A program made the position numbers and the translations under genes. A model generated the notes under the pieces. It had not been told where the DNA came from. It saw nothing but the letters and a program-made list of their open reading frames with translations, and ran no database searches. DNA of 64,000 nucleotides, taken from Saururus chinensis (taxonomy: Eukaryota; Streptophyta; Magnoliopsida; Piperales; Saururaceae). Below are positions 7,481 to 47,940 of this stretch, piece after piece. Numbering within the stretch: the stretch's first letter is position 1; each line of letters begins with the position of its first letter. Location of the stretch: assembly GCA_035235625.1 (NCBI GenBank), contig CP141149.1, positions 13,767,893 to 13,831,892 of the forward strand, in the 5' to 3' direction.

Positions 7481-7506
7481 TTATATATACTGAAAGAAAT
7501 GTCAAC

Positions 7507-12480: not shown

Positions 12481-12490
12481 ATTATTTTGA

Positions 12491-12573
12491 TTGAAATAAC
12501 TAAAATGTCTACTATTTACCAAAGTAGACGAGTGGCTTGCAAACGTATAAAGATATTTAACACAACTACCCTT
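12491..12573 (+). repeat. MULE left terminal inverted repeat (partial)
   Basis: Matches the reverse complement of 47816-47914 with two small gaps. Shared landmarks are GAAATAACTAAAATG, TACTATTTACCAAAGTAGAC, GGCTTGCAAACG and CAACTACCC. Confidence 0.8.
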
Positions 12574-12928
12574 AATGTTGTAAACCGCCCTCAACCCCTC
12601 TTCCTGCTCGTTCATCTCTCTGTCTTTCCTCGTTCGTCTATCTGTCTTTCCTCATCACGACTGCTCACCTACTGAAACCCTAACCGCCTTCACCACTTCT
12701 CGGAGACTGTCCTCTCTCGCTTCCCATTCGTTTCTCTCTCTTTCTGTCTTCTCTACTCCTCATTGCCTTTTAGAGCCCTCATCTTACCCTCACTGCCCTC
12801 ATCTTGCCCGCTCGTACTCATTGCCTCTTGGAGCCCTCATCTCACCTCCCAGAGTCCTCAATCATCCCCTCTTGTGGCACGATCTCCATCCCCTCTCTTA
12901 TTGTTGCAATGAAGGTTGCTATCATACC
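12574..12928 (+). other. Pyrimidine-rich leader-like MULE interior
   Basis: CT-rich sequence just inside the left TIR, with repeated GCCCTCATCT-type phrases. By position it would be the 5' region of the captured ULP1-like gene. The coding start is not recognisable, and the adjoining exons have been displaced by LTR insertions. Confidence 0.35.
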
Positions 12929-13045
12929 CTGACACTCACCCGACCTGAGCCGAACTTAGTCCAAGGAACGGTCAAAACACTTGAGGGCGGTGAAGTGTTA
13001 AATTGCGGAAGACTTGACCCCTCTAACGTTAGCAAATCTAAGACC
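12929..13045 (-). mobile_element. Family A LTR fragment (terminal part)
   Basis: Aligns with the first 150 bp of the A copy at 21758: GACCTGAGCCGAACTTAGTCC parallels GACTTGAGCCAAACCTAGTCC, then GCGGAAGACTTGACCCCTC parallels AGCAGAAGACTTAGCCCCTC. It is the 3' end of an LTR in minus orientation. Old and short. Confidence 0.7.
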
Positions 13046-14265
13046 AATAACCATGAAGAATTACTTGGGTGACACTTTGATGTTCAGCCTCACATTCACT
13101 TCAAATAGGAAAACCCCCCTATGCCTCTTTAGGAGATGATGAAAGGCCTGGGCAGGGAACATGTTTCACGTAACATCACATTCAAAATACTTATTGAAAC
13201 ATGTTATCTCAAATAACTTCTTCTGCACTTTGTGTTTGTGAAAGTGATATTTTAATTGTCCAATGTAATAATAAGTAGACTTGCACTAGGGAACCCCTTC
13301 ATATAGCTTACTAGGGACATGTTTCCCCTTTGTGTTTGTTTTTCTTGTAGCCTTTGACATTTCTTAAACAAAGATATCATATTAAAATCAGTGACAAAAT
13401 ATAAGGTTGTAGAGAGATCTTAGATTATAATCAATCAAAAGGGGAAATACTGAAACATAAGATCAAGCTATTAGTTCAAGTACTTATATATGAAAAAGAG
13501 AAACCATGCCTCAAACAACTAATTATTGATCACTAATTAAGGAGGTTTTATAACTATACAATACACAAAATTTATTATTCTATATTATCCAATTTTCTAG
13601 TTATTTAGTTTTATAGTTTTCCAGTTTTATAGTTATCCAGTTTTATAGTTTTCCAATTTTATAGCTATTCAGTTTTATAGTTCTCGAGTTTTTTAGAAAT
13701 GTTACCTCCGTAGGAGATGCAACAAAAGTCATATACTATCACACAAAATAACCAATCTAATCACACTAGCCCTAACATCCACCTAGCCCAATGTGAGTAC
13801 CCCACTAAGAACAAGCAAATATAAGATCAGTTCTCGTGTGTAAGTTTAGTTAGGTAAATTTTATCATTGAAACTTTCCCACATTTTGGTTATACCACATT
13901 TTGGCTCCCACATGTGTAACTTGCAAATGACTAGTTTTATAGTTAACCAGCACTTCTTAAATTTCCAGTTTTATAGTTTCCCAGTTTTGAAGTTATCCAA
14001 TTCACAAATTTCCTATGAAAAATTACTTCCATTCATAGAAGATGCAACAAGAGCTATACATAACTGATAAGCAACAAAAAAAAGAGAAAAGAGAGTATAA
14101 ATATGCAATAGCGATTTGCCCTCATCCATGATACAAGCACCTCTACCCGAGCAACCACAAAAAATAAATCGAGAATCAACACATGAATAATATTTATCAG
14201 GAAAAATATACATAGAAGCAATAACTTACTAGAGGGGGATGGATGGCATGCACGGTGGTTGCAAC
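13046..14265. other. MULE interior with short AT repeats
   Basis: No protein family recognised. Two clusters of a 14-16 bp unit, CAGTTTTATAGTTTTC, lie at 13600-13690 and 13930-14000. Two similar segments ending in GATGCAACAA(A/G)AG lie at 13700-13730 and 14025-14055. The AGTTTTATAGTT unit, read on the other strand, recurs in the MULE parts at 32.0, 37.5, 40.0 and 46.3 kb. Confidence 0.4.
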
Positions 14266-16038
14266 TGTAAGATCCCTAAACCCTAAACCATTTTATTTAA
14301 TTTGTTTTGGTTATTATTATGTAGTTAGTGTTAAATTTGGTTGATTTTGTCTTGTTTTGGGATTTAAGGTGGTTAACTATGGTTTTAAAAAGCAATTCCT
14401 TCATTTTATTGGTTTTTATGATAAACTAACCATTCAAATTTTTTTGGAATCTTTGGCGATTTTTTTGAAAGAGTTAGGGGGCGGGTTCTGTTGTGGACCC
14501 CACGTTCATAAATTGGGATGATAGGTCCCATAAGACCCTAAGAATATATTATTTAAATAATTAAGTGTATCAAAATTTTAAACTTCATTTTGGTCTCAAA
14601 ATAAACAAATTACCCATTTTTAGTGTTAAATTCTATTTGTACCCCAATTTCCTATTAGGTATACACCATGACTTACTATAAATAGAAAGGCACAACCTCA
14701 TTCCAATTTGGGAAGGGCTGAAATTCTGAGGTTAAGATGCCCTAATCCCCATTCTATAAGAGGAAAGTTCGATTAAGGTAAGATTAGCTTAATTTCTTCA
14801 TTAATCACCTAGGGTTTTGCCTAATCTTTCTTAATCCCATCTCTTCCAAAGTTAAATCTTGATTTTTACCACCAAAATTTCTGATTATAATTTTTATTTC
14901 AAACCTCTAATGAGGGATTTTTGTTTTGGAACAAAACAAGCCCTAAATCTATGAGTTTTTAGGTGATTTAACCTTCATTAATCGGATTTATCAAAGTATT
15001 AACAAAACCCTAATGTGGGTAGGGATTTGAAGAGGTTGGAGCGTCGATTTCAGACCAAAAAACTCACTGAAGGTAAGGGTTTTCTTCCAAAATAGATCTG
15101 TGTTTTTGGATTTGAAGTTTGGCGAAGGTTTGTGTGGGTTTGCATGAAGTTGAGCTTTAATGGTGGGTTATGTAAAGCTTAATCTTTCTTGTGATAACTT
15201 GTGTTTTAGTTGATAAATGACTAGATTTACCATTTTCTAAGTTTAGATTTTATTATAATGATGTTTGGAAGTGAGATTTGAAGGTTTAAGTCGGATGTGT
15301 GTATTTTCGGTTTTAGCTTCGAAAGGAATAAGACGAACAAGAACTGTAGATCTGGTGTTCAAATGGCCCTGCAGGGCATTTGAATGACAACACTGCAGTT
15401 TTGGTCATTTTAGTTATTTTTCTCATTTTCATGTTTTTCTTCTTAAGTACCATTTATTATGATTATGATGAGTGATTTATACTTGAAAATGCTACTGTGA
15501 GGATATGAATATTATGTTAAGAGCTATGATGATGTTCAAGTGTGAAGTGGATTTATTCAGTTTAACTGTTATGATTTTTTATCCTAAATTCATGTTGAGT
15601 GATTCTTCATGTTTTTACTTAGGATTTCCAGCATGAGAATGGACTTGTATGCCACCACGTGTTATGATTTAAATTATGGGTGCATGATGGTACCATGTCT
15701 AGCTTAAAGCGTAGAAATGAATATGCTTATCTAAGTCTAGCATGAGGTTTTATTTAACTCGAATTGTGTTTTTCGATGGTTTTCAACCATGATTTCAGTA
15801 AGTAGGAGCCATGTTTAAATTATGATTGCATGTGTGTAGTATGTCAATGAGTTATTATTCATAATGCATATTCCTGTGCTTAGGATTGAGTGCTACTACC
15901 ATGCACACACACACACATGTGGGGGTAATTATAGTGATTATTTGACACTTATGATTAGAAATGATGCATGTATGGGTAATGGGAGCATGTTTCATGAATT
16001 AGGATTCATGTAGTTATTGCTCACATATGTACCATGTT
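14266..16038 (+). mobile_element. Family A long LTR, 5' part, truncated
   Basis: Starts TGTAAGATCCCTAAACCC and follows the other A copies through the promoter region (ACTATAAATAGAAAGGC near 14676), the AAGGTAAGATTAG leader and the palindromic module at 15358-15384. Homology stops at about 16038 (TACCATGTTGC). It is closest to the A copy at 25298-27453, which lies in the opposite orientation. Family A resembles long-LTR Tekay-type chromoviruses in length, termini and primer site; that placement is inference. Confidence 0.75.
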
Positions 16039-16111
16039 GCCGGAAGGTCCTCCTGCCTGACACGTTTAGGTTGTCCCTTAACCAAGCGACACTCTTCTAA
16101 GCCCTTCTCTC

Positions 16112-16448
16112 TGTTGTGCACGGGTGCACTCGGCTCAGTACTTACCTTTATTTCAGTACTTTATTTCTGTTCCTTAGCCTAATTTCCCTTATGTTAGCAG
16201 TTGACTGTTATTTGTATTTTGAATGAACTGTAATAGGTACACTAGTGGACCACGGGTGAATCGGCCCCACTAGTGGCATGATCCCCAATGTGGGAGGGCG
16301 CGACTCCCACTCCCCATAAAGGGTCGTCTCCCTCCTTGGTTAGGCATGCTTATTGAATTCCAATTATTTTCTCCCCTTTCTTCCTACTTCTTTCCGTTTC
16401 TCTACGTAGAACTCCTATGTACCTCCTGTGCCCACTCCGGGCACAACA
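16112..16448 (+). repeat. Chromovirus 5' LTR
   Basis: 337 bp, TGTTGTGCAC to GGGCACAACA, with perfect TGTTGTG/CACAACA termini. Followed by the primer site. Confidence 0.93.
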
Positions 16449-16449
16449 T

Positions 16450-16461
16450 TGGTATTGGAGC
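16450..16461 (+). other. Primer-binding site, initiator tRNA-Met
   Basis: TGGTATTGGAGC one base after the 5' LTR, close to the TGGTATCAGAGC complement of plant initiator tRNA-Met. Confidence 0.85.
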
Positions 16462-19400
16462 TCTTACGATCCCCGGCCATGGATCGAGGCAAACAAGCTG
16501 CCACAGCCCCGGAAAGTCAGCCCGAGAAAGAGGCTCTCACCTCTGCGAACAGTCCCAAAGCAGCGCCTGAATCGAGCGGTAAGCTTACGATGACACAACT
16601 CATGGCAGAGATCAAGGCTTTGAGCATGGGAGTAGCCAAGATCGATGTTTTGGGCTTGGCCGTTGCCCAGCTTCAAGTAGAGTGCGCAACACCCCTTCTG
16701 GCCAAGCTGCCACCAGTTTCCATGGAGAAGGGGGGTCCATCCCAGGCTCCTAAACCTCTCCGCTCTAACTTTCCAGTGTCGACAGACCGTGATATGCACT
16801 TTTCCCAAGACACTCTACGCTTTGGCACTGTCGACCAGGCCATGGATGGGAGGCGTCAGGCCTGGGACTCGCGAGGCACACCAGGTGTTCGGGAAAATGC
16901 CCCAATGGTGCCGCCTCCCCGAAACTTGTACCAGGAGATGGAGGATGACTGGGAGGAGTACCCAGGGCACCGCGAAGCACCCTATGGTGGGGCGGAACCT
17001 CATTTGGCCCGCCTACAGTTCCCACGTTATAATGGGGACGACGACCCAGTTGAATGGCTGTACAAGGCAGAGAAGTTTTTTGCCTACCAAGGGACACAGT
17101 TGGAGGCTGAACGACTGCGCATAGTGGCTTTCCACCTAGACGGGAATGATTCGGTATGGTTTCAGAGCTTTGAGAAGGAGGTGCACTACCCCACTTGGAC
17201 TGCCTTCTCCGATGAATTGTGCATCCAATTCATCCCAAATGAGTTCCAAGACTTCAACAAAATGCTCTCCTCTTTGCAATAGACATCCACCGTTTGAGCA
17301 TACTACATGGAGTTCATGAAGGTGGCCAACCGCCTCCCTGATTGGCCAGTGGCCGCCTTGGTGGGCACGTTCAAGAGAGGGCTCAAACTAGAGATTTCTG
17401 AGGAGATGCGCCATTTTCCCTGTTCCAGCATGCGGGATGTCGTGCGTCATGCACACATCGAGGAAGAGAAACTGGCTAGACAGAGGCGTGGGGGCAGGTT
17501 CGGACCTTTTCCTCGGGCTGTTGTGACTGCCTCCCCTATTGCCGCCTAGCCAGTAGCTCAGTGGCTGGCCGTGCTGGCCAAGCATCTCCTCAGACCGGCC
17601 CGATTGTCTGCCATCTTGGTCCAGCTCAAATGGAGGAACATCATTCGAAAGGGCTTTGTTTTCACTGCGATGAGAAGTTCGTTCCCGGGCACCGTTGTTC
17701 CGTCAAGGGCAGTCTCTTAGTGGAGGAGATCGATGAAGAGACAGAGGTGACAGATGGGCCTGACTCTTCGTACCATGCTGACACACTGCCGGAGATTTTT
17801 GTGCATTCTTTTTCAAGGACATTCACTCCGCGCATTATGCGAGTACAGGGTTACCTCAAGCGGCAGCAGGTCGCCATTCTGATTGACAGCGGGTCTACAC
17901 ACAACTTCATTAACGACAAAGTTGCCCAGTGGCTAGGCTGCTTTGTGTCTGACTTGATGCCCTTTAACGTATTGATTGGCGATGGCAAGCACCTCCGGAG
18001 TTCCAGGGTCTGTACCCAGGCCGTGCTCTCCATTCAGGGCCACACATTCGTGACCAACCTCTTCTTGCTTCCGACGAAGGGGGTGAACGTGGTGTTAGGG
18101 GTGCAGTGGCTCCAAGAGCTTGGGGACGTTCTCTGGAACTTTAAGGACCTGGTGATGGATTTTGCAATTCATGGGCAGCGGGTGCGCCTCCAAGGCTCTC
18201 AGCCAGGCACTCTCCTTTCTGCTTAGTCGATGGGGTCCTTATTCCGGTTTGCATCGCAGGGGCTACTCCTACAACAGCAGGCATCGGTGGACGTTGTGCA
18301 AGATGAATTGCTGCAGGATCTTCTTGACCTCTTGGCGGAGTATGGTACGGTGTTCGTTGAACCGTAGGGCCTTCCTCTGGTGCGGTTGCATGATCACTCT
18401 ATCCCTATCATTCCAGGTGCTTTTCCAGCCAATGTCCGTCCATATTGCTATCCGTACATTTAGAAGGCTAAAATAGAACGTCTGGTGGCTGACATGCCTC
18501 ATTCTAGTATCATTCGGCCGAGCACGAGCTCCTTCTCTTCCCCGGTGTTGCTGGTTTGTAAGAAAGATGGTACTTGACATTTCTGTGTTGATTACCGGGC
18601 TCTCAATGCTATCACAGTGAAGGACAAATATCCTATCCCGGTGGTGGAGGAGTTTCTTGATGAGCTATCGGGCGCTACTGTCTTTAGCAAACTCGACCTT
18701 AGGTCGGGTTACCATCAGATACGGGTACAGGCCGCCGATGTGCACAAGACTGCTTTTCGAACTCATGACGGCCACTTCGAGTTCCTGGTTATGCCGTTTG
18801 GCCTTACGAACGCCCCATCTACATTTCAGAGCCTTATGAATGATCTCTTCTGGCCCTTCCTTTGCCGCTTCATCTTGGTTTTCTGCGATGATATCCTTGT
18901 CTACAGCAAGTCATGGGGGAACATTTGGAGCATCTCAAGTTTGTCCTTACTATTCTGAAAGATAATTCCTTGTTTATTAAACGTTTGAAGTGTTCATTTG
19001 GCAGCCCATAGGTGGAATATTTGGGTCATATCATCTCTCGTGATGGCGTCGCTACTGACCCCTCTAAGGTGACCACCATGCTGTCTTGGCTGTCTCCTGC
19101 TTGCGTCCGAGCTCTTCGGGGCTTTCTAGGCCTTACTGGCTACTACCGGTGATTCATTCCCCACTATGGAAAGATCACTCGACCCCTTACTAAGTTTATG
19201 TGGAAGGGGGCCTTTCTCTGGTCTCAGGCTACCCAAGAGGCCTTTGACGCACTGAAACGGGCTATGGCATCTGCTCCTGTTCTCATCCTTCCTAATTTCA
19301 GCCGGCCTTTTGTGGTGGAGACCGATGCTTTTGATACAGGCTTAGGGGCGGTGCTACTCCAGGAAGAGCGTCCCATTGCCTACTTCAGCAAGGCTTTGTC

Positions 19401-21056
19401 TGGCCATTCGTTGTCCCTGTCTGTCTACGAGAAAGAGATGCTGGTCATTGTCCTCGTAGTTGACAAGTGGCATCCTTATTTGTTGGGATGCCGGTTCTTG
19501 ATTCGCACTGACCACCAGCCCCTCAAGTATTTCCTCGAACATCAGGTGTCCACTCCTTCACAGCAGCGGTGGGTTAGTAAGCTCCTTGCTTATGATTATG
19601 AAGTGGTGTACAAGAAGGGCTTTGATAACACTGTGGCCGACTCCCTTTCTCGTCGGGCCTCTCCAGACTGACCCAGCGGCCCGGCCTTTCTTTGCATGGA
19701 AGGATGCCCTCCTCTTTTGGAAAGACCTCTTATGGGTTCCTGAGGTTGTTGATCTACGATGGCGTATCATCTCTCATTTTCATGACTTCCCTATGGTTGG
19801 TCATGAGGGTGCCCTCCGCATGTATAAGCGGGTCAGTCAGAGCTTCATGTGGCAAGGCATTCACTAGGCTGTTACTGCATATGTGGCTGCTTGTGATGTC
19901 TGTCAGTGAGCTAAGGCCACCACGGCGTGTCCTGCGGGGTTGCTTCAGCCATTACCTATTCCATATAAGGTATGGGAGGATGTTTCCATGGACTTTGTGG
20001 AAGCTTTACCCATGGTACAGAGCAAGTCGGTCATTATGGTGGTGTTGATAGGTTGTCCAAGTACACACATTTCTATGCTTTGAGCCACCCCTACACCGCC
20101 AAGTCAGTGGCGGAACTCTATGTCCAGGAGGTGGCCAAATTACACGGTATGCCTCGCACTATTGTTTCTGATCACGACTGGGTTTTCATCTCTCAGTTTT
20201 GGCAAGAGTTTTTCACCTTACAGGGCACTTCCCTGCACATGAGCACCGCATATCACCCTCAGACGGATGGTCAGACAGAGGTCGTGAACCGATGTTTGGA
20301 GCAGTACTTGCGCTGTTTCACCATGTCTCAGCCACGCCGTTGGCTTTTAGCTTCTTCCATGGGCAGAGTGGTCTTATAACACCGCCTACCACACTCGTGC
20401 CGGCTTCACTCCTTTCGAGGTCCCATATGGGAGGCCGCCCCCGACAGTGTTATTGTATGTTCCCCATCACTCCTCGATGGCTGAGGTTGATTATATGCTT
20501 CAGACACGGGACAAGGTACTTTGTCAGCTTAAGGATAACTTGTCATCGGCTCAAAACAAGATGAAGTAGATCTACGATACTCATCCCACGGATTGAGAGT
20601 TCACGGTGGGCAACTTAGTTTATGTTTCTGTTCTTCCTCAGCGCCAGGTCTCCTTGTTTCAGCCTGAGCACTCAAGCTTGCCCCCCGTTTCCATGAGCCA
20701 TATGTTATAGCAGAGCACATTGGTTTGGTTGCTTACTACCTGACTCTTCTGCCTGGGTCGTTGGTTCACCCTGTCTTTCATGTATCCAGGCTGCATCGTT
20801 GCATAGGCAACCCGTCTTTGGCCACGATGTTCCACCACCTCCTTTGATGGGTCCTGTTGTTTCTGCTGAACCGGTTCCTACAGCGCTGCTTGATAAGTGT
20901 CGTGTCTGCTGCTCTGGTCGTATTATCACGGAGGTTTTAGTTTCTTGGCAGGGCCAGCCACTTGAGGATGCTACTTGGTTGTCTGAGGATGAGTTTATGT
21001 TCTGGTACCCTTCATGGTCGCCTTGAGGTCAAGGCGTGAGCAGAAGCGTGGTGGAG

Positions 21057-21381
21057 TGTTGTGCACATGTGCACTTGGCTCAGTACTTACCTTTATTTTT
21101 GTTCCTTAGGCTAGTTTCCCTTATGTTAGCAGTTGACTGTTATTTGTATTTTGAATGAACTGTAATAGGTACACTAGTGGACCATGGGTGAACCGGGCCC
21201 CACTAGTGGCACGATCCCCAATGTGGGAGGGCGCGACTCCCACTCCCTATAAATGGTCGTCTCCCTCCTTGGTTAGGCATGCTTATTGAATTCCAGTTAT
21301 TTTCTCCCCTTTCTTCCTACTTCTTTCCCTTTCTCTGCGTAGAACTCCTATGTACCGATCATGCCCACGCCGGTCACAACA
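21057..21381 (+). repeat. Chromovirus 3' LTR
   Basis: 325 bp, TGTTGTGCAC to GGTCACAACA. It contains TATAAAT near 21248. It is preceded by a purine-rich tract and followed by the CTCTC duplication. Confidence 0.93.
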
Positions 21382-21738
21382 CTCTCACACCACGGAAGTC
21401 TAAAGTACTCCTGTTAAAGTCTTTATGATATATGTCAACCCTTCAACAGAGGTTAACACGTTGTCAACCCTTGAATCTCTTATCGTGAGATCACCACTAG
21501 TGCCGATGTGATCCTATCTAGCTATCTACACAACCATTGGACACTAAATCATAATACCTAATTGCACTAAGCAACACAACTAACCAAGCAAAACAAACAC
21601 ACAATGAAACAAGCAACAATCAAGACAAAGAACTAACGGAATTTACATCGCTAGTTATGTCTAGACCTTGATCATCTCACAACCCATAAACCCTTAAAAC
21701 TTGTTACTCAATTCTTATTTACTCTTGGACAAAGTGGT
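21382..21738 (-). mobile_element. Internal region downstream of family A primer site
   Basis: Read on the minus strand, this follows the PBS of the family A element at 21758-25297. With 16039-16111 it makes only about 430 bp of non-LTR sequence before the next LTR-derived block, and no protein domain is visible. It looks like a heavily deleted or non-autonomous interior. Confidence 0.5.
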
Positions 21739-21750
21739 GCTCCGATACCA
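21739..21750 (-). other. Family A primer-binding site (initiator tRNA-Met)
   Basis: Reads TGGTATCGGAGC on the minus strand, 7 bp beyond the CGTGACA end of the LTR. One mismatch to TGGTATCAGAGC. It shows that the adjacent 3.5 kb block is a 5' LTR in minus orientation. Confidence 0.85.
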
Positions 21751-21757
21751 AAAACTT

Positions 21758-24700
21758 TGTCACGTCCCGACACCGCCCGACTTGAGCCAAACCTAGTCCA
21801 AGGGTTGGTCAAGCTCGCGGGGGCGACAAAAAATTGAGCGAGATTAAAGGATAGCAGAAGACTTAGCCCCTCCTACGGGCGGTTTAACTAGCAGAGTTGC
21901 ACATCTTGAGTCCTTTAAGTGAGTAATAAGTAGAACAAAAGAGGACTTTAACTCTGAACTAGTTCATAAGTCTTATACCCACATACTTAGAATCCCAAAC
22001 CAACACACATGGCTCGAATCAAAAAGTTTCAAACAAATCTAAAAATATAAGATATACATGAGTCTGAAACAATAACCACCATACATTATGTTTTATTATT
22101 ATAACAGAGTAAATCGGAAAAACATAACAAAGTCTAGAGGCATCCACACCTAATCCCATGTGCTCCCCGACTGTTTCTCATACAGAGGGTCCTGCCCAAC
22201 TGCATGTCGAACCATGTAGCCCCAAAACAGAAACAAAGAAAGTGGGGTGAGTAAAACTCAGTAAGGTTTGAATACGGCGACAATAATCAAAAAACTATCA
22301 CGGCATGGGAACATAGCAATTCAAATTCATAATTGACATGGTATACCCTTTTTCTAATCATTCCCTTGCTAACTCCTATTTATCCATAAACATAAAAGTT
22401 GGCATGCATATGACACACCTATCAAAGTCAAGGAATAAATAATCATATCATAACTTAGCATCTCTCCTGCATAAGTAATAATCATCATCTAATCAAATTA
22501 AGCATAATATCACCATAAACAGCATGAGAAGTGTCTTTTACACACTTTCTGATCATGCAACCATATCACATAAACTTGCACAATAGTGTCTCATTCACAC
22601 CATTCAGATCATACAATCATATCACATAAACTTGCATAATAGTCTCAATCACACGATTCAAATTGTGTATTCATATCACATCAACTTGCATGAGGAGTGT
22701 ATTTAACACATAATTCAGATCATGCATTCATATAAATCTCATACATTCCATAGCTCATTCACCTGCACGACAAGTGTCTAAACCACACTACATCAAGATC
22801 ATGCATAATAAATAGCATCCACATGTGTCACATAATCTCAAATATCCCTACACAAGTTGTGTAATCTGGGCATAATATTATCTTATACACATGCATTATC
22901 ATCAAACGGTGAATGTCTCCATCATGGAGATGAATACAATCATATCACCCGCTTTGGACGTAATCTGATTTCCTATTCAGAAACCTAGGGCATTGCCCAC
23001 TATAGACACAGTCTGAATTCCATATGGAAAACTAGGGTGTAGGGGTAGTCAGCCCCTCTGCTCGCTTTGGACAATCCACATGAGAAGTCCAAATTAACTA
23101 GAGCAAGTTTGTTTGCTCTGGAGAGTCTGGGTCAAGAACATCCGAATTAACTAGAGCAGTGTGTTCACTCTGGACATCTCTGCGGTGGAAGAGTCCAAAT
23201 TAACTAGAACACATGGTAGTTGGTGCACAGAGGCATACCATTCTGGATTCTCAGGGTCCAGGTTTGACTATCTTAATAAATAAATCTCAATCGCATTAAT
23301 AATTCAAATTGACTCAACCCGGGGAGTATACATGTTCCACACAAGAACTTAAATTGAAATCAAGTCCTTTTGGACCAACCAAGTTTTAATTAAGCCAACG
23401 ATCGATTAATCCAACACACAATCTCACATCATTGCATAGAATCAATCAACCATGGCTAATCATCGATAAATACTCATTCATAAAACTTGTTTCATGATGC
23501 ATGAATTCATGATACAAACGTGAGCAAGTTCTAAGTGAATTCCCATACATGGAACATACTCTCATTATTCCCCACTTGCATCATATTCGAATTATAACAA
23601 CCACAATTTCATAGCACATACCCCACATGTGTGTGTTTATATATTTTTAGACATATGGCCATGCTTTGACAATAGCTCATAAGGCAATCCACACATGCTT
23701 TGATAAAAATCTAATCATAATTATCAACTAAAATCATGGGTGAAATCCAATGTAAAACATCATTCCATTCATATAGAATCAAATGTTCAACTCTTACAAG
23801 CATGATTATTCTATACATGAAGCTAGAACATGATATCACTATTTACCTACAATTTATTCATATTATAAGATAACATATCATCTCATTATCATACAATAAC
23901 CCTACTGGAAACATATTTAGAACATAAAATTTTCATTACCCATAAGTTCAAGATAATCAATGTTAACATGTCTAACTATTCACATGTAATTTCACAAAAT
24001 ACTTAAGCATGTTTCATAAATATCAACATAAGTAGCATACCCTTCCAGTAGCTTAATATAGCTCAAAACACTCCACATAAAGATTAGAAACATCACTTGG
24101 GAGCAAAAACACCAAAATTAACATAACAAACAAAAGGGCCAAATCTGTCGTGTAGTTGATCGATCAGCCTAGCAGGTTGTTTGATCGGCCACTAGGCTTG
24201 GTCAATCGCCGACAAGGTAGATCGAGGTCTTCTTTTGTTTGAAATTCAAAACCGAAACACCATTAATGGAGCTTAAAATTTTCATTTCAAGCCTCATACA
24301 CCATAAAAATTAAATTAATCATTCCAAACATTAAATCAACTTATTTCAAATCAAAACCCTAAGTAATCAAGTTAAAAGATTAACTTTTTGTAAATCCACA
24401 ATTAAAGCCCTAAATATGAAACTCATTCAATTAAAACACATAAAAATCGAGATTTGCATACATATTAAGGCTAAGATGAAAACCTATTACCTTTCCACTT
24501 AATTTGAGTCAGATTTACACTTAAATCACCTCTGATACCTTCCAAAAGCTTTTATGTTAAAACATACCTAAACTTGATTTAGACTTGAAAATCATAAAAA
24601 AAATCCTAGATCTAGAGCTTAGGAGGCATAAAATCAAAAATTTGAAGGTTAGGGTTTGAAGTAGAGGAGTAAAACAGTGATTTAATGCTTTGGAAACAGA

Positions 24701-27453: not shown

Positions 27454-27480
27454 TTCCCCATAAGGATTTTACCCAAATTA
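27454..27480. other. 27 bp spacer between opposed LTRs
   Basis: Short sequence between the outward-facing starts of two A LTRs on opposite strands. It is likely a scrap of the MULE or of the original target. Confidence 0.5.
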
Positions 27481-30740: not shown

Positions 30741-30837
30741 GACTCAACCCCTCCTCTCCCATCAATTCCCAAAATTCTTGAAGAAAGACAACCTCCTACT
30801 ACGAATATTTGGGGGGGCGAAGTTATTAATAAGGAAT

Positions 30838-36850: not shown

Positions 36851-36978
36851 TTATATGTTTTCTTTTCATAACATTTAATTGAAATCATAATTAATAGAGT
36901 TGTTGAACCCTTTTTTTAGAGGATGACAACACCCTTCAAGAACAGAAGAAGTGAGCATAATAAATCAAGCATGCCATG

Positions 36979-37356
36979 TGTTGAAGGGTGGGCAGGATGC
37001 AGTCTGATTAGGGAGTGGGAAGCATGTCATGTGTTGAACACTTTTTTCAACGGATGTCTTATTTCTGTTTAGTGATCCCTTAACAGGTCAAAGCTGAATT
37101 AGTTGATTGTTTAGGAGTTAATTCAGATGAGTATTAGATGGGTATAAATGGGAGCTGTAAATAGAACGTAGTTAGTTTTTCTGGAATTCTTCTTAGTAAT
37201 AGAACTTAGTTTAATGTTTTGAGCTTCTGCTTTGCAGACCTGAATTTGGGTAGATATGTGGGTTCAGATCATTCTTTTTTGTTCTATTCAAAATATAAAT
37301 ACAGATTTATTTCTTGTTCTATTTTTTCCTATCACTTTCTGCAAGAGCTTTCAACA
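36979..37356 (+). mobile_element. Small LTR-like insertion between the two MULE genes
   Basis: Terminal TGTTGAA and TTCAACA, a TATAAAT near 37142 and AT-rich R/U5-like sequence. GCATGYCATGTGTTGAA occurs twice, at 36969 and 37023, so the true left end could be 37032. The flanks do not give a clean duplication. Probably an old solo LTR. Confidence 0.45.
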
Positions 37357-37399
37357 GCATCAAATGAGCGATTTTGGGAACGCTGAGAGGGAAAACCAT

Positions 37400-37980
37400 A
37401 GTTCACACAAATAAGCAATTTTGGAAAAAATATAAGAATAAAAACACTAAAAAAGCCTAATTAGATTCACAACATAGGAAGAAAAATGGGATGCACCATT
37501 TATGCATGCATTGACTAAAAAACTGCCAAACTGTAAAACTGGACAATTGACACCAAAAAACTAAAAATTGGAAACAGGAAATTGAAAAACAAGAAAATTG
37601 CATAACTAGAAAACACTTGAAAAACTGTCAAACATGATAAACTAATATCTATACTATAACAAAAACTCATGCAACTTGCAAATATAAATATAATTGATAG
37701 AGAACTAGGGATTTGTATACAATTGATGTTGCAAAAACCCTTTATGTATGTGAGATACACAAAGAAGGAACTATGAATCAATGTATACAAGTAATATCAA
37801 CAAAAAATTGCTTTTGTATACCTTTCATATCCACAAAGCTACATTTGTCTCCAAACATGTATCATATTTCAAACTCTAAATTGAAATATTAGAAACTATC
37901 ACCTCCAACATCCATTTTGGAAGGTTGTGGCATATCTTCTGCACTATGACTACTTGAGGTCATCAACTTTGCTCGTTTAG
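37400..37980. other. MULE intergenic spacer with AAAACTG repeats
   Basis: Spacer between the convergent MULE genes. 37510-37635 is rich in AAAACTGCCAAACTGTAAAACTGG-like units. No gene seen. Confidence 0.45.
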
Positions 37981-40795
37981 GTGTAGGCCCGGACTTTCTA
38001 GGTGTACTTGACTTTTACTTCTTTGCGGAAGCTACTTGTCTCTTTTCTTTATGATTTTTAATTGTTGGAGGTTCTCCTATATCTATTCTACTCCTATCTT
38101 CATTGTCATTGCCATCATGATGCCTAACTACTATGTTATGTCCATACCCCTTACATTTACTGCACTTGACCGTTCTCTTTTCTTCGTCGTGCGAGAGTAC
38201 TCGCTTCTTCTTTGGTTGTCCTACAAGAATCCTTGAATGTCGAGGCTTCAATTGAATTACCCTTACAAAATCTGGTGTATCCCATTGACCTTTATGTAGA
38301 ACAAGGTATATGCTACACTTGTAAACTTCCTTATATGTATCGGCTCTGTAAAATGGAGAGCAATATGTATGATAATCAATACGTCTTTTTGAGCATGCAG
38401 CCAGAGTATGTTCACATGGTAGACCCATAACTGGAATTTCCCACAAGTGCATGTCCTAGCTTCTAAATCAACCTTATCATCATATAGATATGACTTCGTA
38501 TAAAACTCATGTGCACTGATAGGATAGCATGAAAGTGCATGTGCTTCCTTAGCCATTGCCCCAGTCTCATTTTCTGCCCACAAAGTTAATTCACTAGTCC
38601 ACTTACCTGCACATGTGATATGTTGATACCAGATATCTTGAATCTTTAAGCATATACCCTCTAATATGGCCACAATTGGATATTCCTGATGCTCTTTAAT
38701 CATGGAGTTAAAACTGTTACACCCATTAGAAGTCACAATATTATACCTCTTCCTGGGGAAATGTACATTTGCCTATTTTGCTACATCTACATCGATTAGC
38801 TACTTGTGCGCATCTAGATTAATCTGTTGTATAATGGACATTTGCTCATCAAATTCCTGCACACAGTTTGTCTTTGCTACAATGTAGAAGTGGGGGGAGA
38901 TTCCTCGATCTTTAAAATTTTGCATTCATATTGGACCACACATGATAAGCACAATACCCATGTAGACAGTCCAAAAATACTTTTGGAACCTGTGAAATGA
39001 TTGAGCGGTTTTTGTCAGATATGATAACAAGTCCTTCAATATGGCCTAGGACATGCTTCAGACATTTAACTACCCAATTCCATGCTTCGTTGTTTTTTGA
39101 TTCTCTAATCACCAATGCAATGGGGTACACATGATTGTCACTATTCAAAGTTAATGCCACAAATAAGATACCTTTGTACCATTATTTCAAATGTGTGTCA
39201 TCTATGGAAATGACCTTGCACATGTGTCTCTTGAAATTCTCAACACACACGCCAAAGGATACCAAACACCTTAGGAATGATTTGTTTCTAATGTTGTATT
39301 TGATCTCTGTGGTAGTCCCCAGGTTCATCTTTTCCAATTGGTGTAGATATACTGGAAGGTCTTCATAAGACTCCTCAAATGTTCCCTTCAACTTCTCCAT
39401 AGTAGCCTCTTTAGCCTTCTAAGCCTTACGGTAACTTATGAAAACTCCATACTTTACACTAATTTTTATATCGGCTAGTGTGTAAGACCTACATCTCGCC
39501 AAACGACATTATACAACATCAATGATAATCCCACTTTTTCCTTGAAAATGATCTTCACCAAGTAATGTCTTTGATCAATATGGACGGAATTCATTTCCTT
39601 AACTTTGAACATGAAGCATTCACTAATTCTTGAGGCATGTAGTCTCCACGGGCAGTTCTCAACAACACATCTAACAGTATACCTTGATTTATTTGAATAT
39701 ATAATATTGAACTGAATCTTGGTGTATATGGCCATGTTGTGAAGGTGAAGTTGAGGCATGACTTTGTCCTTAAATTGTTGACCAATTTCTATCACTTTTC
39801 GATCATAAACCTTCCCTAATTGCACCCTAAAATCATTGTTTACATAAGGATCCTCCCCAGTAATGTCCATTTTGTGGGTTAAACTTGGGATTTTCATCAT
39901 GTCTCAATATCTTTTTCTTACCACCTTCATTGTTCCTAGAAATTACAAGTGTCAATTATTGAACTACAAACTGCCAAACTAAAAAACTACCAAATTGAAA
40001 AACTGCCAAACCGTAACATCTAGAATTCTTGAGAAAATTTTTTCTCCTTTGTCTGTGAGTTTGTGTATTTGCTTGAATTGCTTTCAAACCGTATGATTTG
40101 CTTTTTGTGTTAACCAATTAAGATTATTGGTCCAACCTTTGTATGAAGGGGGTGGACCACTTAAGGTTTAGGGGCCCCACCCCATTATAAGGGAGGTCCG
40201 CCCCACTAGAATACAATTTTGGAAGAAGAAGAGAGTCCTAGGGGAAGAGGGCAGTGTTAAAAGAGGGTCAAGGAGTAGCCCCTAGATTATAGGGGGCGAC
40301 CCCTACAATTTAGGGGGAGGTTTGGGAAGGCCTTTTTGAGTGTTCCTAGATTGTAGGAGGGGGGATTAGGATTCTAAGGGGATGAGTCCACCCTCTTTGC
40401 TCTAGCCCTCCTATTGGTCCAAAAGCCTAGATACTAGGGGACAAAGTCTATAAAACAAGAGAAGGGGGGCAGACCCTAGCCCTTTTGCTAGGTTGGTCCT
40501 CTCTCTCTCTCCCCTTTTGTTTCTTTCTTTTCTTTGTCCCCTCAAGGGCCTCCATAACTAGTAGCTTTAGAGGGAACAAAACAACCATCTTTGGATTGAA
40601 TTCAAGGCCTAGAAGCTTAGGAGCAAGGGCTAGGAGCTTTGGGGATGAATTGGTAAAGGTAGGTGTATCTTTTTACACCCTTATGCATGAGATTTTCGTA
40701 GATGTAATTCAGCCATAGTTCAGCCTTGCTCTAGGGGTTTTTTTGATATCATGAATCAACCTTTATTAGTCTTGAATGATTGTGATTTTGCCTCT

Positions 40796-40817
40796 TATAT
40801 ATATATATATATATATA
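40796..40817. repeat. (TA)n microsatellite
   Basis: About ten TA units inside the family B LTR. Confidence 0.85.
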
Positions 40818-40959
40818 ACTGAATTGTTCATACATGATTCTGATTTCTGTTAAGTATATTAGCCCAAATTTGTGTAAGCATGTTACTGATTTTTATCATC
40901 TATCTTAGCCCTATATTATGCATGAATGTTTCTAATTCTAGTCAGGTACATTATCATCA

Positions 40960-41275
40960 ATTTGTGTATAAGCTCTGCTAAATTTAATCCCTAGTTTGTG
41001 ACCTTAAATTAGGCCATACTTTTGCCTATTTAATTCCTAACTAGTGGCCCTAGGTTGGGCTATACTTTTGTCATTTAAATCCTTGATTTGAAGCCTTGGT
41101 TTAGGCTGTACTTTTACTTATTTAGATCCCTGATCTGCAGCCTAGTTTAAGGCTATATTTTTTCCCATTTAAATCTCTTAATTGCAGCCTTGTTTTAGGC
41201 TCTAATTTGGCCAAATTAATACCAAATTCTCAGCCTTGAGTTATGTTATAATCATGCTGAGATAATACCTAAATT
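40960..41275 (+). repeat. Degenerate tandem repeats of about 60 bp
   Basis: At least five diverged units built on TTTAATCCCTGATTTGCAGC, then CTAGTTTAGGCTATACTTTTG. They lead straight into the left arm of the palindrome, whose own sub-repeats (GAATTTCAGCCTATGTTGTC) look like a shortened form. Confidence 0.7.
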
Positions 41276-41726
41276 TCAGCCCTAGTTTAGGTTGTATAAT
41301 TGTCTATCTAATACTTGATTCTCAACTTTAATTTAGATTATAATCTTGCTGATTCAATCCCTGATTTTTTAACCTTAGTTCATAATGTATTCATGCTCAT
41401 TGAGTCTCTGAATTTCAGCCTATGTTGTTTTTGAATTTCAGCTTAAAATACCTCTGAAATTTAGCCTATGTTGTCCCTGAATTTCAACCTATGTTGTCTT
41501 TGAATTTCATCTTAAGATGTCTCTGAATTTTAGCCTATGTTGTCCCTAAAATTCAACCTTATTGTGAGAAGTTGAATGCTGATGGTTTTATCAACCTAAA
41601 ATTATCATGTTAGGTGGCTGACTTGAGTTGTTCATCTCAGCCCCAATCTGTTTCATTATAATGTCAAGTCAGCCAACTAGCATGATAATTTCAGGTTGAT
41701 AAAATCATCAGCATTCAACTTATCAC

Positions 41727-44700
41727 TATAAGGACCCTCATCTTTGAACCGGTTTTGGTTTTCTTTAATTATGGGTTATCGTGAGATTTACGCGTTTTCT
41801 GATCTTATTCGGTGATTTCATAAATAAATAGTGTTTGTGATATTTTAACTAAAATTAACTTCAATATTAGTGGTGTTGAGTGATTTTAAACCAAATGTGA
41901 ATTTTTGAGATTTTTTGGAATTTTCACTATTTTCTCAAAAATTAGGGTTTTGGCGGGACCCCTGTGGGCCCCACCGTCAAAAATTTTATTTTTGTATCAA
42001 ATGAACCTAGACATATACTTAAGGTCCCACAAAAATTTTCAGAATTTTATTAGGCTTAAATTTGCAAAATACCCACTTTTAGCCTACTTTTCATATTTAC
42101 ACCCCAAAACTTACCTATGCCTACCCCAACCCTTACTATAAAAGGGTAAACCAGAGCCACTTCCATTTTTGGGAATAGGCTAAGGAAGGAGGGCTGGCCT
42201 AATCCCCACTTAGGCCCGAATTAGAAGCCGATTAAGGTAAGTTTGCTCTAATTAAGCACTAATCCATGACTTTTCTCTTAATTTCTTCCAAATCTACCAT
42301 TTTCCCCTTGATTCAATTCGTTTTTGACCATCAAAAGCTACTGATTTGTGTTTTACTACAAACCCTAACATTCAAAATTTGATTTTTACTACCAATAAGC
42401 CCTAGATCTAAGGTTTAATTAGGGATTTCTTGAGTAAATCGATTTCCATTAGAGTTTAATTCAAACTCATTGTGTTTTCAAGGATTTCAAGAAGGGTGAC
42501 TCTTCAATCCGAGCTTAATCAAGTGCTGAGGTAATGGGTCTTCGAAATCTCTGTTTATCCATGGTAAAACTCTTCATTTTTGGCTTATTTCGAAATGGTT
42601 TACTTGATTTAGTGTGTTAATGGTAAGATTAGAAAATGGAATTATTTAATCTCGATTTCTTAGGGTTTTGCATTATTATGGTTTGGTTTGATATTCTGGA
42701 AGTCAAGGAGGACTTTTGATGATGATTAGGGTGTTAGATGTGGATTTGAAGTGTTATCTATAGTGTTTCGGTTTGATTTTGCGAAAGGAAGAAGATGACT
42801 GTTCTGCCGTGTTGGCGATCGATCGGCCTTGTAGGGCGATCGATCGGCTGAACTGTAAATTTCAAATTTTTGCGTGTAACCAATCGAACGGCCTGAAGGG
42901 AGATCGATCGGCTACACAGGAAATTGTGTGTTGTGCATATGATGTCTATTTTGATGATTCCACTTTAGCTTGCCAATTTTATATGAATGTGGAGTGTTTT
43001 AAGCTATGTTAGGCTACTAGAAATGCATGCTATTGAGTTTATGGAGTTGAGATATATGCTTAGAGATGGTGGAATGACATGCTTTGTGGCATAATGTTGG
43101 AATCGTTATCTTGAAATTATGAATGGTTGTTTCCCTTTGGTTAAGCATATATTTTCAGTTGGACTGATTTGTCATGATAGATTGTGGTTAGTGGTGTGTG
43201 GATGTTGGTGAATGCCATGACTCAATGATGAAATGAGTGATGTTATATGTGTTTAGCCTTTGTGGTTGAGTTTTGAATCTAGCTATGATTTCAACGATTC
43301 TTCTACTATGATTTCCGCTGGAATTTATGTTTAGGTAGAAATTCACATGTGTAGTGTGGTAGTGAGTTGATTTTCAAGCATGTTGATATGCATTATGTGA
43401 AAGGCTTCTACTAGTTACACACACACACACCTGTGGGGGTTAAATGATGATGTTGAAGCTTAATATTGTGATTATGAATGATGCATTAGGGGCTGGTGAG
43501 AGCACTTATCATAATTAGGATTCATGTATGCTTTGCCCACGCATGTACCATGCTGCACGCATCATGAAAATGGATTTCCAAGTGAGGCTTCATCGTGATT
43601 AATCGAATTTGACCGATTAGATGCAATGTGATGAAATTGTGTGCCGGGTTTATCGGTCGTGGATTAATTGCAAGTTGATTGGTCCGAAAGGACATATTTT
43701 GATTTGAAGTTCCTGTGTAGAACGATTTGAAGTTCCTGTGTGGAATGAGTGCACTCCCGGGGTTGAGTCTTGTTTAATGGAATGATGTGGGGACGAGTTG
43801 TGTACTTGTCTTGCGGATATGTGAGAATATTATTATGTGTGTCATCTGGACCCTGAGAATCTAGTGTGGTATGCCGTGTGCACCCCGCTACCACGTGTTC
43901 TAGGGTTCTCGGTGTGAGAACTTGGGCTCTTCCCTCCGCAGGAAATGTCCCTGGGCGAACACCCCTGCTCTAGATTCTCTGTGTGAGAATGGGACATCCT
44001 TGGCCAGGATCGTCCAGGGCGAGCAGTATTAGGGATTGACAACCCCGATCTTTCTTGAATTCTTGTATAGAATTTTGGATCATGACACGCCTTCGTGGCC
44101 TTGTCTATGCTCCCGTCTGTGTGACATTAGTGTGTGATTACTCCTTGATGGAGGTTGTTTGTGATGATATAATGCATGTGGGAATATGTATATTAGAGAT
44201 ACATCCATGCATGCTGATTTTGATATTATGCATGTGGAATATGTATGTTAGAGATACATCCATGCATGTTGATTTTGATGTTATGCATGTGGAATATGTA
44301 TGTTAGAGATACATCCATGCGGGATTGGTTATGATGTGAATGCATGTGGGAATATGTATGTTAGAGATACATCCATGCAGGTTGTGATGATATTATGCAT
44401 TATGATGCAGTGTTAGGTGATCTGAATGTGTGATCAGAAAGTGATGTACCATGTAAATCTTTGATATGAACGATCTCATTGCTAAACTATCGTATTTTCT
44501 ACGTTGATAGTGATATTAAAACCATTGCTGAGTGTTAAAACTCACCCCTCTTTTGTGTTTTGATTTGGGGCTGCGTAGTGCGACACACAGACGGACAGGA
44601 TTGCCTCTTTGAGGAAACGTCAGAGGTAGCTTGGGTGTGATGATGGAGATCGTTGAGTGACTTACCTGCGTTTGTTTCATGCTTTATGTTCGAACCTTTG

Positions 44701-45019
44701 TGTAGGGTTCTTGTTTTGGATTTATGTCATATACTACAGTTGTGATGATTATGACTTATTTTGAGCCGGTGTGGGCTTTACTTAACTAAGTTTGTGGGTT
44801 TGAGATTGTTGTTTACTTTGTGATAAGCAACACCTTTTTCTTCCATTTTATTTACTCTTGCTCAAAGGATTGTGCGCACTCCGTGTTGTTGTTAATTGCT
44901 CGTGGTTAGGGTTAAGTCTTCCGCTAGATCATTTCTAAATTTTCACTTCGTCGCCCCCGCGCGTTTGACCGGCCCCTGGACCGGGTTTGGCTCGGGTCGG
45001 GCATCGCCGGGGCGTGACA
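41727..45019 (+). mobile_element. Family A solo LTR, 3.3 kb, target duplication ATCAC
   Basis: TATAAGGACCCTCATC to GGGGCGTGACA, with ATCAC on both sides (41722-41726 and 45020-45024). The uninterrupted palindrome arm confirms the empty site. Landmarks match 27481-30740: TATAAAA near 42138, leader, palindromic GATCGATCGG modules at 42818-42915, and a tandem array near the end. Confidence 0.93.
44160..44385 (+). repeat. Tandem array of about 55 bp, four units
   Basis: Four units containing GAATATGTATGTTAGAGAT and ACATCCATGC. Only just over two are in the sister LTR at 29960. Confidence 0.85.
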
Positions 45020-47207
45020 ATCACAATAAGGCTGAATTTTAGGGACAACATAGGCTAAAATTCAGAGATATCTTAAGATGAAATTCAAAGACAACATAGG
45101 CTGAAATTCAGGGACAACATAGGCTAAATTTTAGAGGTATTTTAAGCTGAAATTCAAAGACAACATAGGCTGAAATTCAGAGACTCAATGAGCATGAATA
45201 CATTATGAACTAAGGTTAAAAAATCAGGGATTGAATCAGCAAGATTATAACCTAAATCAAAGCTGAGAATCAAGTATTAGATAGGCAATTATACAACCTA
45301 AACTAGGGCTGAAATTTAGGTATGAGTCGTTATCATGTTGATTAGTTCACATACTTAAGCCCTAAATCTGCCTATTATCTTGCCAATCATGAAAGTCAGT
45401 TGCATGCATGATAGGTTGTGTTTAATATTTAATCTTTGGCTACATTAAGTCATATGTTCATTCAGTATTGTGTTAGTTCATAGCAATAGCCATAGTGGTA
45501 ATCTTTCAGACCTTTGTGGTCTCTGTTCCTTTGGGACTTTGACTCCCTGTAAAATGCGCAAACCAGGTTTTTGAGCATCATGGAAGGCTCATCTACCTTC
45601 GGCCAGTGTGTCCATAAGCACAACTAGTACTTATATCTATAGACCCATGACTAATCCAAGTGGATCCCTAGGGATGTTAGGACTTCCCTGCTAGTGTGCA
45701 ATACTCCTTGTGAACATAAGTCAATTTTTTAGATAACATTAATAAGTTTTTTTCTAAATGGTGTAGATATCAGTTGAGTTGTTCAAGTTTTCATTAGTTA
45801 AAGGCCAGTTTGGGAGTATTGTTTATTTGATAACATGTACTCTATATACTACCTTTATGTGGTACCTTTGTAGGATGTTTTGCACATGTTAACAAATGAT
45901 TTCCACTATTTTTGTATGTTATAATCTCTTGATTTAGGGTGGTTTTTCATGCCACCTATTGAGTATTTGCAGAAATACTCACGCATCATTTGATGCAGGA
46001 TTAGCACCAAACACATATTAGCAGGATTTTCTTAGCAGAAGTTGATCAAAATAGGAAGGGTGGCCTTTTGCAGTTAGTAGAACTTTAGTTTCTATTATTA
46101 TGCTTGATTGTATTAAGGCACTGTGTTGCCATAAGTTTTAGTTCATGTTATTTTATGGTGTTAGAGTACTTGCACTTGGCAGAACCCGGATCTTAGAATA
46201 ATAATATTTTGCTTTATTAGGTGAATTATTAATTTGATGAGATGTTTATTTATGCAAAGTAGCACCCAGAGGTTGCATTGCCTCTTGTCTATGTGAATGA
46301 AAACCTGGGGTGTTACATAAACTACCAAACTGAAAAAAGAGATTACTTACATCCTTTTAACTAATGTTTCTAGAACTGATATTTGTGGATGGACTATCCA
46401 TGGTTTTCACTTTTTCATCAAAAATCATAGGCTAACTACAGTTGCTTCTATTTGATCTACATATTCTAAATATATTTTGTATCAATAGTCTCATACATCT
46501 ACATACATGATACAAAATTGCAAACTATATTCACAATATTTTTTATACCTTTTATCATTAGGACAAGGATGATCTTGGGGTTTTGGAAAACTCATAACAT
46601 GTTCTTCTGTACCATAATTCACCCTTCCTATAGGATCATCTTCATTTGCAGATGGTGAAGCATAATAAGTATCTTGCCCAAATTCGAAGTCATTTATAAT
46701 TGTATTTGGGACATACTCATTAATGTTTGAATCGATATCAAACTCTTGCTTTACACTTGCTAGGTCATCATGTGTTACTTTTGAATCAATGTCAATGTGG
46801 GATGTAAGTATTTTCTTCATTATACTCTCCTCTTTTAAATGAAATAACTCATCTAATTGGAGTTTATCTTTGTCACAACTGATATTAACAGTTGTGTTGT
46901 ATGGAACACTAAAAAATGCACCCTTCTCCTCCCATATTGCTCTTGTTCTTCCTATTTTCTCCTCCCACTTTGCACTTTTTCTTCCCATCTCCTCCTGCCA
47001 CTTTGGCACTTTGACATTAATATTCCCGTAAGTAATATTCTCTTTTCTTGCTTTAGTTATCATAAATAGTATTCCATTCAATCGTAACTTATTCTCTCGA
47101 AGGAAGCAATGAAGAGTTCTAGTATCATGTATTTCAAAAGGTGGAAGGTCAATAGGAATTGCAATCAGATATATAAAAATTAACTTTAATGAGTACCCTT
47201 TCTTCAA

Positions 47208-47815
47208 CTATTTACAAACTTCATACAAAAATATCCAAGATAACATCACAAGTCACCTTGCATAGAACTTCAATTAGTTTTATTTATGCATTGTCGCAAT
47301 TATATTTCCTACCACTTGCAACCCAATGGATGTCCCAAACACACAACAAACCTTGTGTGTCCCTTTTCATGCTCTTCTCATATCATATTAGTAATCTATT
47401 TTTTTTACTTTTTCAATTTTTCAATGATCCAATCTTCCAACTTTCCAGTTACCCATAAAACCTTACTAGCAGAAATTACGTAATGCCTAATATATAACTA
47501 ACCCAAAATAACATTTTGCATTGGATAACAACTTTTTCATCATCCCAAATAACATAAACCTATCTACTTGGATGAAGGGAGTAAACTACTAGGTATTCGG
47601 AGCTGGAAGTTGTGAAGTACTAGAGAAAAGAACCTGAGAAGAGAAAGCAACTGGGCAAACAAACATGAGGAAGATGAACTTACCGAGGAGTAGGAAGCCA
47701 TACAGGAGATAAAACCACCGTGAGATGAAGACGTACAGGAGAAGAAGATGACGTCTTCCTAGACTGAATGATCAATGTGACATATTTTTCCCGTCGGCTT
47801 GTCATATGATGGAGA
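47208..47815 (-). other. MULE 5' region of the transposase
   Basis: Sequence between the transposase N-terminal block and the right TIR. It should contain the promoter and leader of the transposase. A possible minus-strand donor (TCGG|TAAGTT) lies near 47682. No further domain seen. Confidence 0.35.
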
Positions 47816-47940
47816 GGGTAGTTCAGTCAAATACCTTTTCACATTTGCAAGCTCCTACGTGAGTAAGTCTATTTTGGTAAATAGTATATAGTTGCTCACA
47901 TTTTGGTTATTTCACTGAAGTAGGAGTCTACTTTGGTCAA
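47816..47940 (-). repeat. MULE right terminal inverted repeat
   Basis: The inner part, 47816-47914, pairs with 12491-12573. The outer end reads TTGACCAAAGTAGACTCCTA inward from 47940. The TIR contains two related sub-blocks, ACCAAAGTAGACTCC and ACCAAAATAGACTTAC. Confidence 0.8.

Follow-up and report, generated by a model that had tools for sequence, protein, structure and literature searches.

Do two inverted sequences 35 kb apart mark the ends of a single transposable element, and what happened to the DNA between them? The question is raised by a 64,000-nt stretch of the Saururus chinensis genome (contig CP141149.1, positions 13,767,893 to 13,831,892), the whole of which is called the window here. 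A sequence-only reading had proposed that 12491-12573 and 47816-47914 are inverted copies of each other and enclose a ULP1-like gene and a MuDR transposase, as the ends of one Mutator-like element (MULE) hidden under retrotransposons. From the comparisons below, the window very probably holds one MULE that was later filled by insertions and had one piece flipped. The genome searched for relatives comprised 516 Mb in 11 contigs (named C1, C2, C3, C6 and so on). Twenty longer paralogous loci were fetched and are numbered L039-L058; L018 is a shorter, overlapping match.

When aligned as inverted copies, the two end sequences gave 68 identities over 100 columns, with 19 gap columns (E = 2e-9). The local score of the pair was 57, whereas 2000 first-order Markov resamplings did not exceed 32 and 1400 other placements in the window, on both strands, did not exceed 33, which upholds the proposed relationship. 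The pair forms an old terminal inverted repeat (TIR). The right terminus lies at 47946 (GAGCTTTTGACC...). The left end was placed near 12481 by comparing paralogue ends by eye, its outermost 20-35 bp being eroded. TIRs in the family are ∼130 bp long, with 119/132 identical positions in L051, 111/130 in L053 and 70/88 in L054. Between its termini the MULE extends over 35,466 bp, of which 9,757 bp in five segments are native DNA (taken as 9,762 bp in the k-mer and octamer scans), in agreement with the suggestion that an element of 9-10 kb had swollen to 35 kb. The native segments are:

12481-12919, plus strand: segment A, with the left TIR (best part 12491-12573) and sub-terminal DNA; matched in paralogues
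13028-14265, minus strand (inverted): segment B, with the first part of the DUF1985 exon and the octamer array 13591-13694; matched in paralogues
30741-33203, plus strand: segment C, with the rest of the DUF1985 exon (30741-31154), a stretch of the ULP gene that is acidic and rich in repeats, and octamer arrays at 32039-32070 and 32087-32110
36024-40011, both strands: segment D, with the C48/Ulp1 domain (plus, 36350-36871), intergenic octamer arrays, pieces of the MuDR transposase (minus, 39903-38015) and the array 39968-40011
46318-47946, minus strand: segment E, with DNA upstream of the transposase gene, probably including its start, and the right TIR; matched by L018

An origin of the two ends in different families was suspected at first, because the left end looked low-copy, with 13 matches in the whole genome, and the right end high-copy, with 576 first-look candidates, and neither list held the partner (for the right end, among the best 40 of 576). 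Whole paralogues reversed this view. In L051, L053 and L054, left-end DNA (within 12476-12919) and right-end DNA (47269-47946) stand at a distance of 3.7-4.2 kb, and inner parts of the window MULE lie between them; the flanks of L053 and L051, compared by eye, match at 8/9 and 7/9. L058, on C2, holds segments A to D and the start of E, and the whole of E (1,629 bp) is matched at 80% by the overlapping locus L018; together they carry all five native segments, including C48/Ulp1, within ∼10.9 kb and in the window's order except for the flip. A second large copy with all segments is formed by L057 and L052 on C6, and has a 7.8-kb gap of its own inside segment C. DNA matching segment A sits at one end of L045-L048, L050-L054, L056 and L058. 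Both ends thus belong to one family.

Alternatively, the ends could come from two different copies of one high-copy family that by chance stand at this distance, the DNA between them being a mosaic. The family is certainly abundant (searches with internal segments gave 265, 203 and 312 first-look candidates, beside the 576 of the right end), and the failure of the ends to find each other in the lists just described would fit two copies. Every break between native segments, however, coincides with inserted elements, and the native DNA of the paralogues is continuous across the breaks, or nearly so in the repeat array at 40011. L058 nearly refutes this alternative, and we regard it as very improbable. 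A genome search with the window's left flank, made for a paralogous empty site, matched the window itself only.

The genes carried by the MULE were located by their domains. C48/Ulp1 was found on the plus strand within 36350-36871 (37 bits), and DBD_Tnp_Mut (52.5 bits) and the MULE transposase domain (48.7 bits) on the minus strand within 39475-39903 and 38912-39181, respectively. A SWIM domain scored 33.9 bits in L058 and 14.4 bits, below the cut-off, in the window. The two genes are therefore convergent between the ends, as had been read from the letters, and they are also convergent in L055, L057 and L058. Among the matches listed (the best ∼40 of 203-312 candidates), 19 of 40 scored MuDR matches lay no more than 15 kb from a scored match to DUF1985/ULP. 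The two were on the same strand in 14 cases and on opposite strands in 5, the window included; one opposite pair, on C3, may join two elements. Two gene arrangements occur, and the opposite-strand arrangement of the window is the rarer. DUF1985 exceeded its cut-off of 35.1 bits in L046 (54.6 bits) and L045 (42.5 bits), where one frame, with stops, spans the site of a breakpoint in the window. From order and strand, a single gene probably joins DUF1985 to the C48/Ulp1 peptidase. A Pfam scan of the L058 pieces 1413-1679, 2406-2690 and 4819-5130 and of L057 742-1146 gave no domain.

The window copy is dead. Its transposase gene is in pieces, and its C48 domain has NNNNW in place of the NNNHW of L058, in which the histidine preceding the tryptophan is presumably catalytic. 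L058 has FNP where the window has FDP, and therefore is not intact either.

At least seven later insertions were counted, where the sequence-only reading had put the number at five or more: two R-type elements at the inversion breakpoints, a gypsy element, the long terminal repeat (LTR) at 33204, the element at 40012, a foldback and a nested R-type LTR. Exact 5-bp target duplications were found at four insertions (GTTGC, CTCTC, TAAAT and ATCAC). The inserted DNA is as follows:

12920-13027, minus strand: R-type LTR tail remnant of 108 bp; 67 bp match the end of R 27481-30740 at 77.6%, and 48 bp match R 21758-25297 at 81%
14266-30740, both orientations: cluster of R-type LTR elements with ends TGTAAGACCC...GGCGTGACA, partly resolved, with LTRs at 14266-16038 (plus), 21758-25297 (minus), 25298-27453 (minus) and 27481-30740 (plus)
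16112-21381, plus strand: Ty3/gypsy retrotransposon nested in the R cluster, with target duplication CTCTC/CTCTC and broken frames
33204-36023, plus strand: LTR with ends TGTAATATC...CATGACA and target duplication TAAAT/TAAAT; site empty in L057 and L058
40012-46317, plus strand: LTR-like element with ends CGTAACATC...GGGGTGTTACA and flanks CAAAC/TAAAC (4/5) in a variable repeat array; split by the foldback
41265-45323, no strand assigned: foldback element interrupted by an R-type LTR, its 303-bp arms being 97% identical
41727-45019, plus strand: nested R-type LTR with target duplication ATCAC/ATCAC, 83% identical to R 27481-30740

Growth of the MULE by insertion is indicated by the paralogues with empty sites and by the target duplications. 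The LTR at 33204-36023 had been a candidate for native DNA, since L056 runs from left-end DNA up to 12940 into a match to 33214-36023; this was ruled out by L057 and L058, which are empty exactly at TAAAT. The element at 40012-46317 is absent from L039, L042, L055, L057 and L058, which have a repeat array of 0-75 bp at the site. For the foldback at 41265-45323 a target duplication was looked for and none was found. R-type LTRs also occur inside the fetched loci L042, L047 and L048. At 21735-21750 on the minus strand, 7 bp past the LTR end at 21758, lies the primer-binding-like site TGGTATCGGAGCACCA, which we take to be of the tRNA-Met type; this site identifies the R repeats as LTRs of a retrotransposon with LTRs of ∼3.3 kb. 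In the gypsy element, pieces of protease, reverse transcriptase, RNase H and integrase scored above cut-off, and gag scored 21.6 bits, below its cut-off of 24.1. Its LTRs are 93.5% identical over 324 ungapped sites, a Kimura two-parameter distance of 0.068, which at a substitution rate of 1.3e-8 per site and year would put its insertion at about 2.6 million years ago. The MULE is older than this, because the gypsy element sits in elements that themselves sit in the MULE. Nesting of this kind is common in plant genomes.

What, then, happened to segment B? It is reversed relative to the window in all ten paralogues that both have left-end DNA and extend over segment B (L045, L046, L047, L048, L050, L051, L052, L053, L054 and L058). 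In these the order is 12919, then 14265 down to 13028, then 30741, with B reaching only 13216 in L050 and 13077 in L051. Nine of the ten continue from ∼30741 after B, and L048 is broken by an R-type LTR after 24 bp. The orientation of B in L040, which has no left-end DNA, agrees with the ten; L049 and L056 are without segment B. In the window, the two sides of the first breakpoint carry the halves of one target duplication, that of the R-type element R_a:

12915-12919, plus strand: GTTGC, one half, followed by the R-type LTR tail
14261-14265, plus strand: GCAAC, the other half and the reverse complement of GTTGC, followed by an LTR start; moved by the inversion

In paralogues such as L045, L046 and L052, GTTGC is present once. 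Taken with the split pair in the window, this indicates that one LTR element inserted with a 5-bp duplication and that the inversion then took one half away. At the second breakpoint (13028/30741), the end of an R-type LTR at 30740 abuts native DNA. The flip cuts the ULP gene inside the DUF1985 exon, and the inverted first half of the domain scores 0 bits and the second half 19.8 bits, below the cut-off. As LTR ends border the segment at each breakpoint and the GTTGC duplication is split, the simplest cause would be recombination between two R-type LTR elements in opposed orientation. Aberrant transposition, a repair event or an assembly error could also have produced the flip. In favour of such a route, the evidence comes entirely from the assembly, the left hybrid LTR is only 108 bp long with no crossover point visible, and part of segment B is flipped in another way in the loci L041 and L043. 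Against it, both ends of the GTTGC duplication coincide exactly with LTR boundaries, a tail in one case and a start in the other, and we think it unlikely. We therefore prefer recombination between the R-type elements.

Several points weigh against the reading of one MULE, filled and flipped. MULEs have target duplications of 9-11 bp; the 9-bp candidate of the window MULE itself, TTTTTTTAT and TTCTTTTAT, matches at 8/9 in a T-rich stretch and is not convincing. Both ends resemble other members of the family more closely than they resemble each other, and the best match of the left end, apart from itself, is 79%. The R cluster is partly resolved, with 21382-21757 placed solely by the primer-binding-like site, the LTR 21758-25297 has no matching duplication, and the target duplication of the other breakpoint element, R_b, is lost. 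It is possible that an assembly error lies behind the inversion. Finally, the short derivatives L041 and L043 hold 0.43 kb of segment B in the window's orientation, and flips by other routes do occur in the family. The breakpoints of that flip are common to both loci and different from the window's, and L041 and L043 also share rebuilt, longer inverted ends; we read theirs as a separate rearrangement that probably arose in one derivative line.

A further feature of the native DNA is its tandem octamers. With no motif preset, Tandem Repeats Finder (TRF) picked up arrays of period 8/16 bp with AAAACT or AAACT as their core at four non-coding sites of the native DNA, the fourth with the variant AGTTTGGN; unrelated TRF arrays were found in inserted elements. 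The family octamer can be written as a tandem (AGTTWTNN)n, in non-coding DNA. In a scan for runs of AGTTNTNN units, all five arrays of the window fell in native DNA, and 20 resamplings of the window gave none. Array positions were:

13581-13696, 32034-32113, 37556-37613 and 39968-40011: TRF arrays in the window
889-1238, 3043-3206, 7024-7121 and 9447-9562: TRF counterparts in L058
13591-13694, 32039-32070, 32087-32110 and, by the octamer scan, 37517-37548: octamer arrays in the window

The same scan was applied to 18 of the 20 fetched loci (L049 and L056 left out; L052 and L057 are parts of one copy), and 14 had at least one array, the four without being L039, L042, L044 and L050. Among the nine short derivatives, six had arrays and L039, L042 and L044 had none. 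Genome-wide, an exact pattern of three units followed by AGTT gave 241 + 200 matches, overlaps counted. The reversed control pattern gave 0 + 0, and the permuted controls gave 0 (GATT) and 2 (TTGA); a third permutation, ATGT, gave 119 and was uninformative, as the 100 listed places were (ATGT)n microsatellite and near variants. The first 100 of the 441 octamer matches (C1 to C3) reduced to 50 positions in 35 clusters. Twelve of the 35 lay within 12 kb of a listed MULE-family match, compared with 0.19 expected at random. Eight of the other 23 were fetched, and all eight were MULE family by sequence outside the octamers, against 0/40 control stretches of the window. In all, 20/20 clusters checked lay in or within 12 kb of the MULE family. 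The tandem octamer arrays of this family appear to be new here.

Do the arrays have a function? They may be ordinary AT-rich tandem repeats inherited with the family and functionless, with the ULP-like gene a passenger, and we lean slightly towards this explanation. The copies are homologous by descent, so that presence throughout the family needs no function; three of the nine short derivatives, and L050, have no array by the same criterion; and the octamer was picked after the data had been seen. It accounts less readily for related arrays in four separate non-coding places of one element, or for the finding that every cluster checked was associated with the MULE family.

How the element relates to known MULEs bears on the same issue; the comparisons are drawn from excerpts of the papers cited. 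With MULE transposase domains and TIRs both present, and a C48 domain at 37 bits within both TIRs of one element, the window element appears to be a ULP1-bearing TIR-MULE, a known kind, and this is the better name. In melon, a Ulp1 gene lies inside TIR-MULEs (PMC2528002, citing van Leeuwen 2007), and ULP1-bearing MULEs are known in grapevine (PMC2528002). These share with the window element a MuDR-type transposase together with a Ulp1 gene, in melon also inside TIRs, and both gene orientations have been reported (PMC2528002). The window copy differs in being swollen nearly fourfold and in its inversion, and octamer arrays are not mentioned in the excerpts of PMC2528002. Taken strictly, the label 'KI-type' given by the sequence-only reading does not hold: PMC2528002 describes KI-MULEs as non-TIR elements, and the family here has TIRs of ∼130 bp. 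It is nonetheless like the KAONASHI (KI) MULEs of Arabidopsis in that the latter have a ULP gene reverse to the transposase and a high copy number (PMC2528002, PMC6117577, PMC13317346).

The VANDAL elements and their VANC proteins offer a second likeness, in an accessory gene with DUF1985 and short motifs in tandem non-coding arrays (PMC5735166, PMC10398659, PMC6446971). VANC proteins bind such motifs, the VANC6 motif being AGTTGTCC/AGTTGTAC (PMC5735166), and KIU genes are VANC genes with a Ulp1 domain and anti-silencing activity in Arabidopsis (PMC13317346, a review). AGTTGTCC is one base from AGTTATCC and AGTTTTCC, both in the window, a likeness that may have arisen by chance in AT-rich sequence. 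A pattern closer to the VANC6 motif occurred at 58 places in the genome, three with AGTTGTCC and one with AGTTGTAC, and three of these four lay within 4 kb of a MULE match. In VANDAL elements TIRs are absent or degenerate (PMC10398659), in contrast to the family here, whereas certain members of the VANDAL clade from other Brassicaceae do possess TIRs (PMC6446971). A link between anti-silencing and degenerate TIRs is called untested by PMC10398659. The shared domain, the similar layout of the arrays and the resemblance in motif suggest that this TIR-bearing family has, or had, a VANC/KIU-like anti-silencing pair, made up of the DUF1985-C48 protein and the family-specific octamer array. We put this forward tentatively, as a possibility that we are inclined to doubt, because inheritance alone also explains the arrays.

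Around the MULE, the window contains host genes and small repeats. A CDK5RAP3/C53 gene (37.2 bits) lies at 51532-52104, and at 60314-62176 there is an open frame of 619 aa that contains mTERF repeats (139.9 bits). On the left, a first exon within 11889-12365 has a JAB score of 19.5 bits, just under the cut-off of 22.5, and presumably belongs to a BRCC36-like gene. Three related repeats of ∼165-200 bp, 72-82% alike, lie at 2600-2790, 7280-7500 and 53110-53330, and we take their ends to resemble those of Stowaway-type miniature inverted-repeat transposable elements. Self-complementary stretches like small foldbacks were seen at 54914-55070 (88%), 62839-62937 (82%) and 59485-59573 (80%), and tandem duplications at 4633-5519 (a diverged repeated block) and 59836-60257 (two ∼215-bp copies, 94% identical).

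We propose the following history. A ULP1-bearing, TIR-type MULE would have inserted just upstream of the BRCC36-like gene, carrying a MuDR-type transposase and, facing it, a DUF1985-C48/Ulp1 gene. The MULE later died, and LTR retrotransposons and a foldback inserted into it and into each other, so that it grew from 9.76 kb to 35.5 kb. Two opposed R-type LTR elements would have come to flank 13028-14265, and recombination between them would have flipped this segment; the flip broke the ULP gene within the DUF1985 exon. Because it also split a target duplication, the succession of events can be followed. In working members of the family, the transposase would cut at the TIRs and, to judge from the likeness to VANC and KIU, the DUF1985-C48 protein may bind the family's own octamer arrays and so counter silencing.

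The window element is a dead MULE copy, ordinary in kind and unusually readable. Domain-by-domain annotation fails here, since one element lies in five pieces over 35 kb and one piece is reversed. Four features go beyond the sequence-only reading: the flip of 13028-14265, the division of a target duplication, the DUF1985 portion of the ULP gene, and the arrays of octamers. If the anti-silencing reading is true, anti-silencing would be independent of degenerate TIRs, and the window would show the death of such a pair through an LTR-mediated flip inside DUF1985. If the octamer is a real target, the family would allow the coexistence of anti-silencing genes and long TIRs to be asked about.

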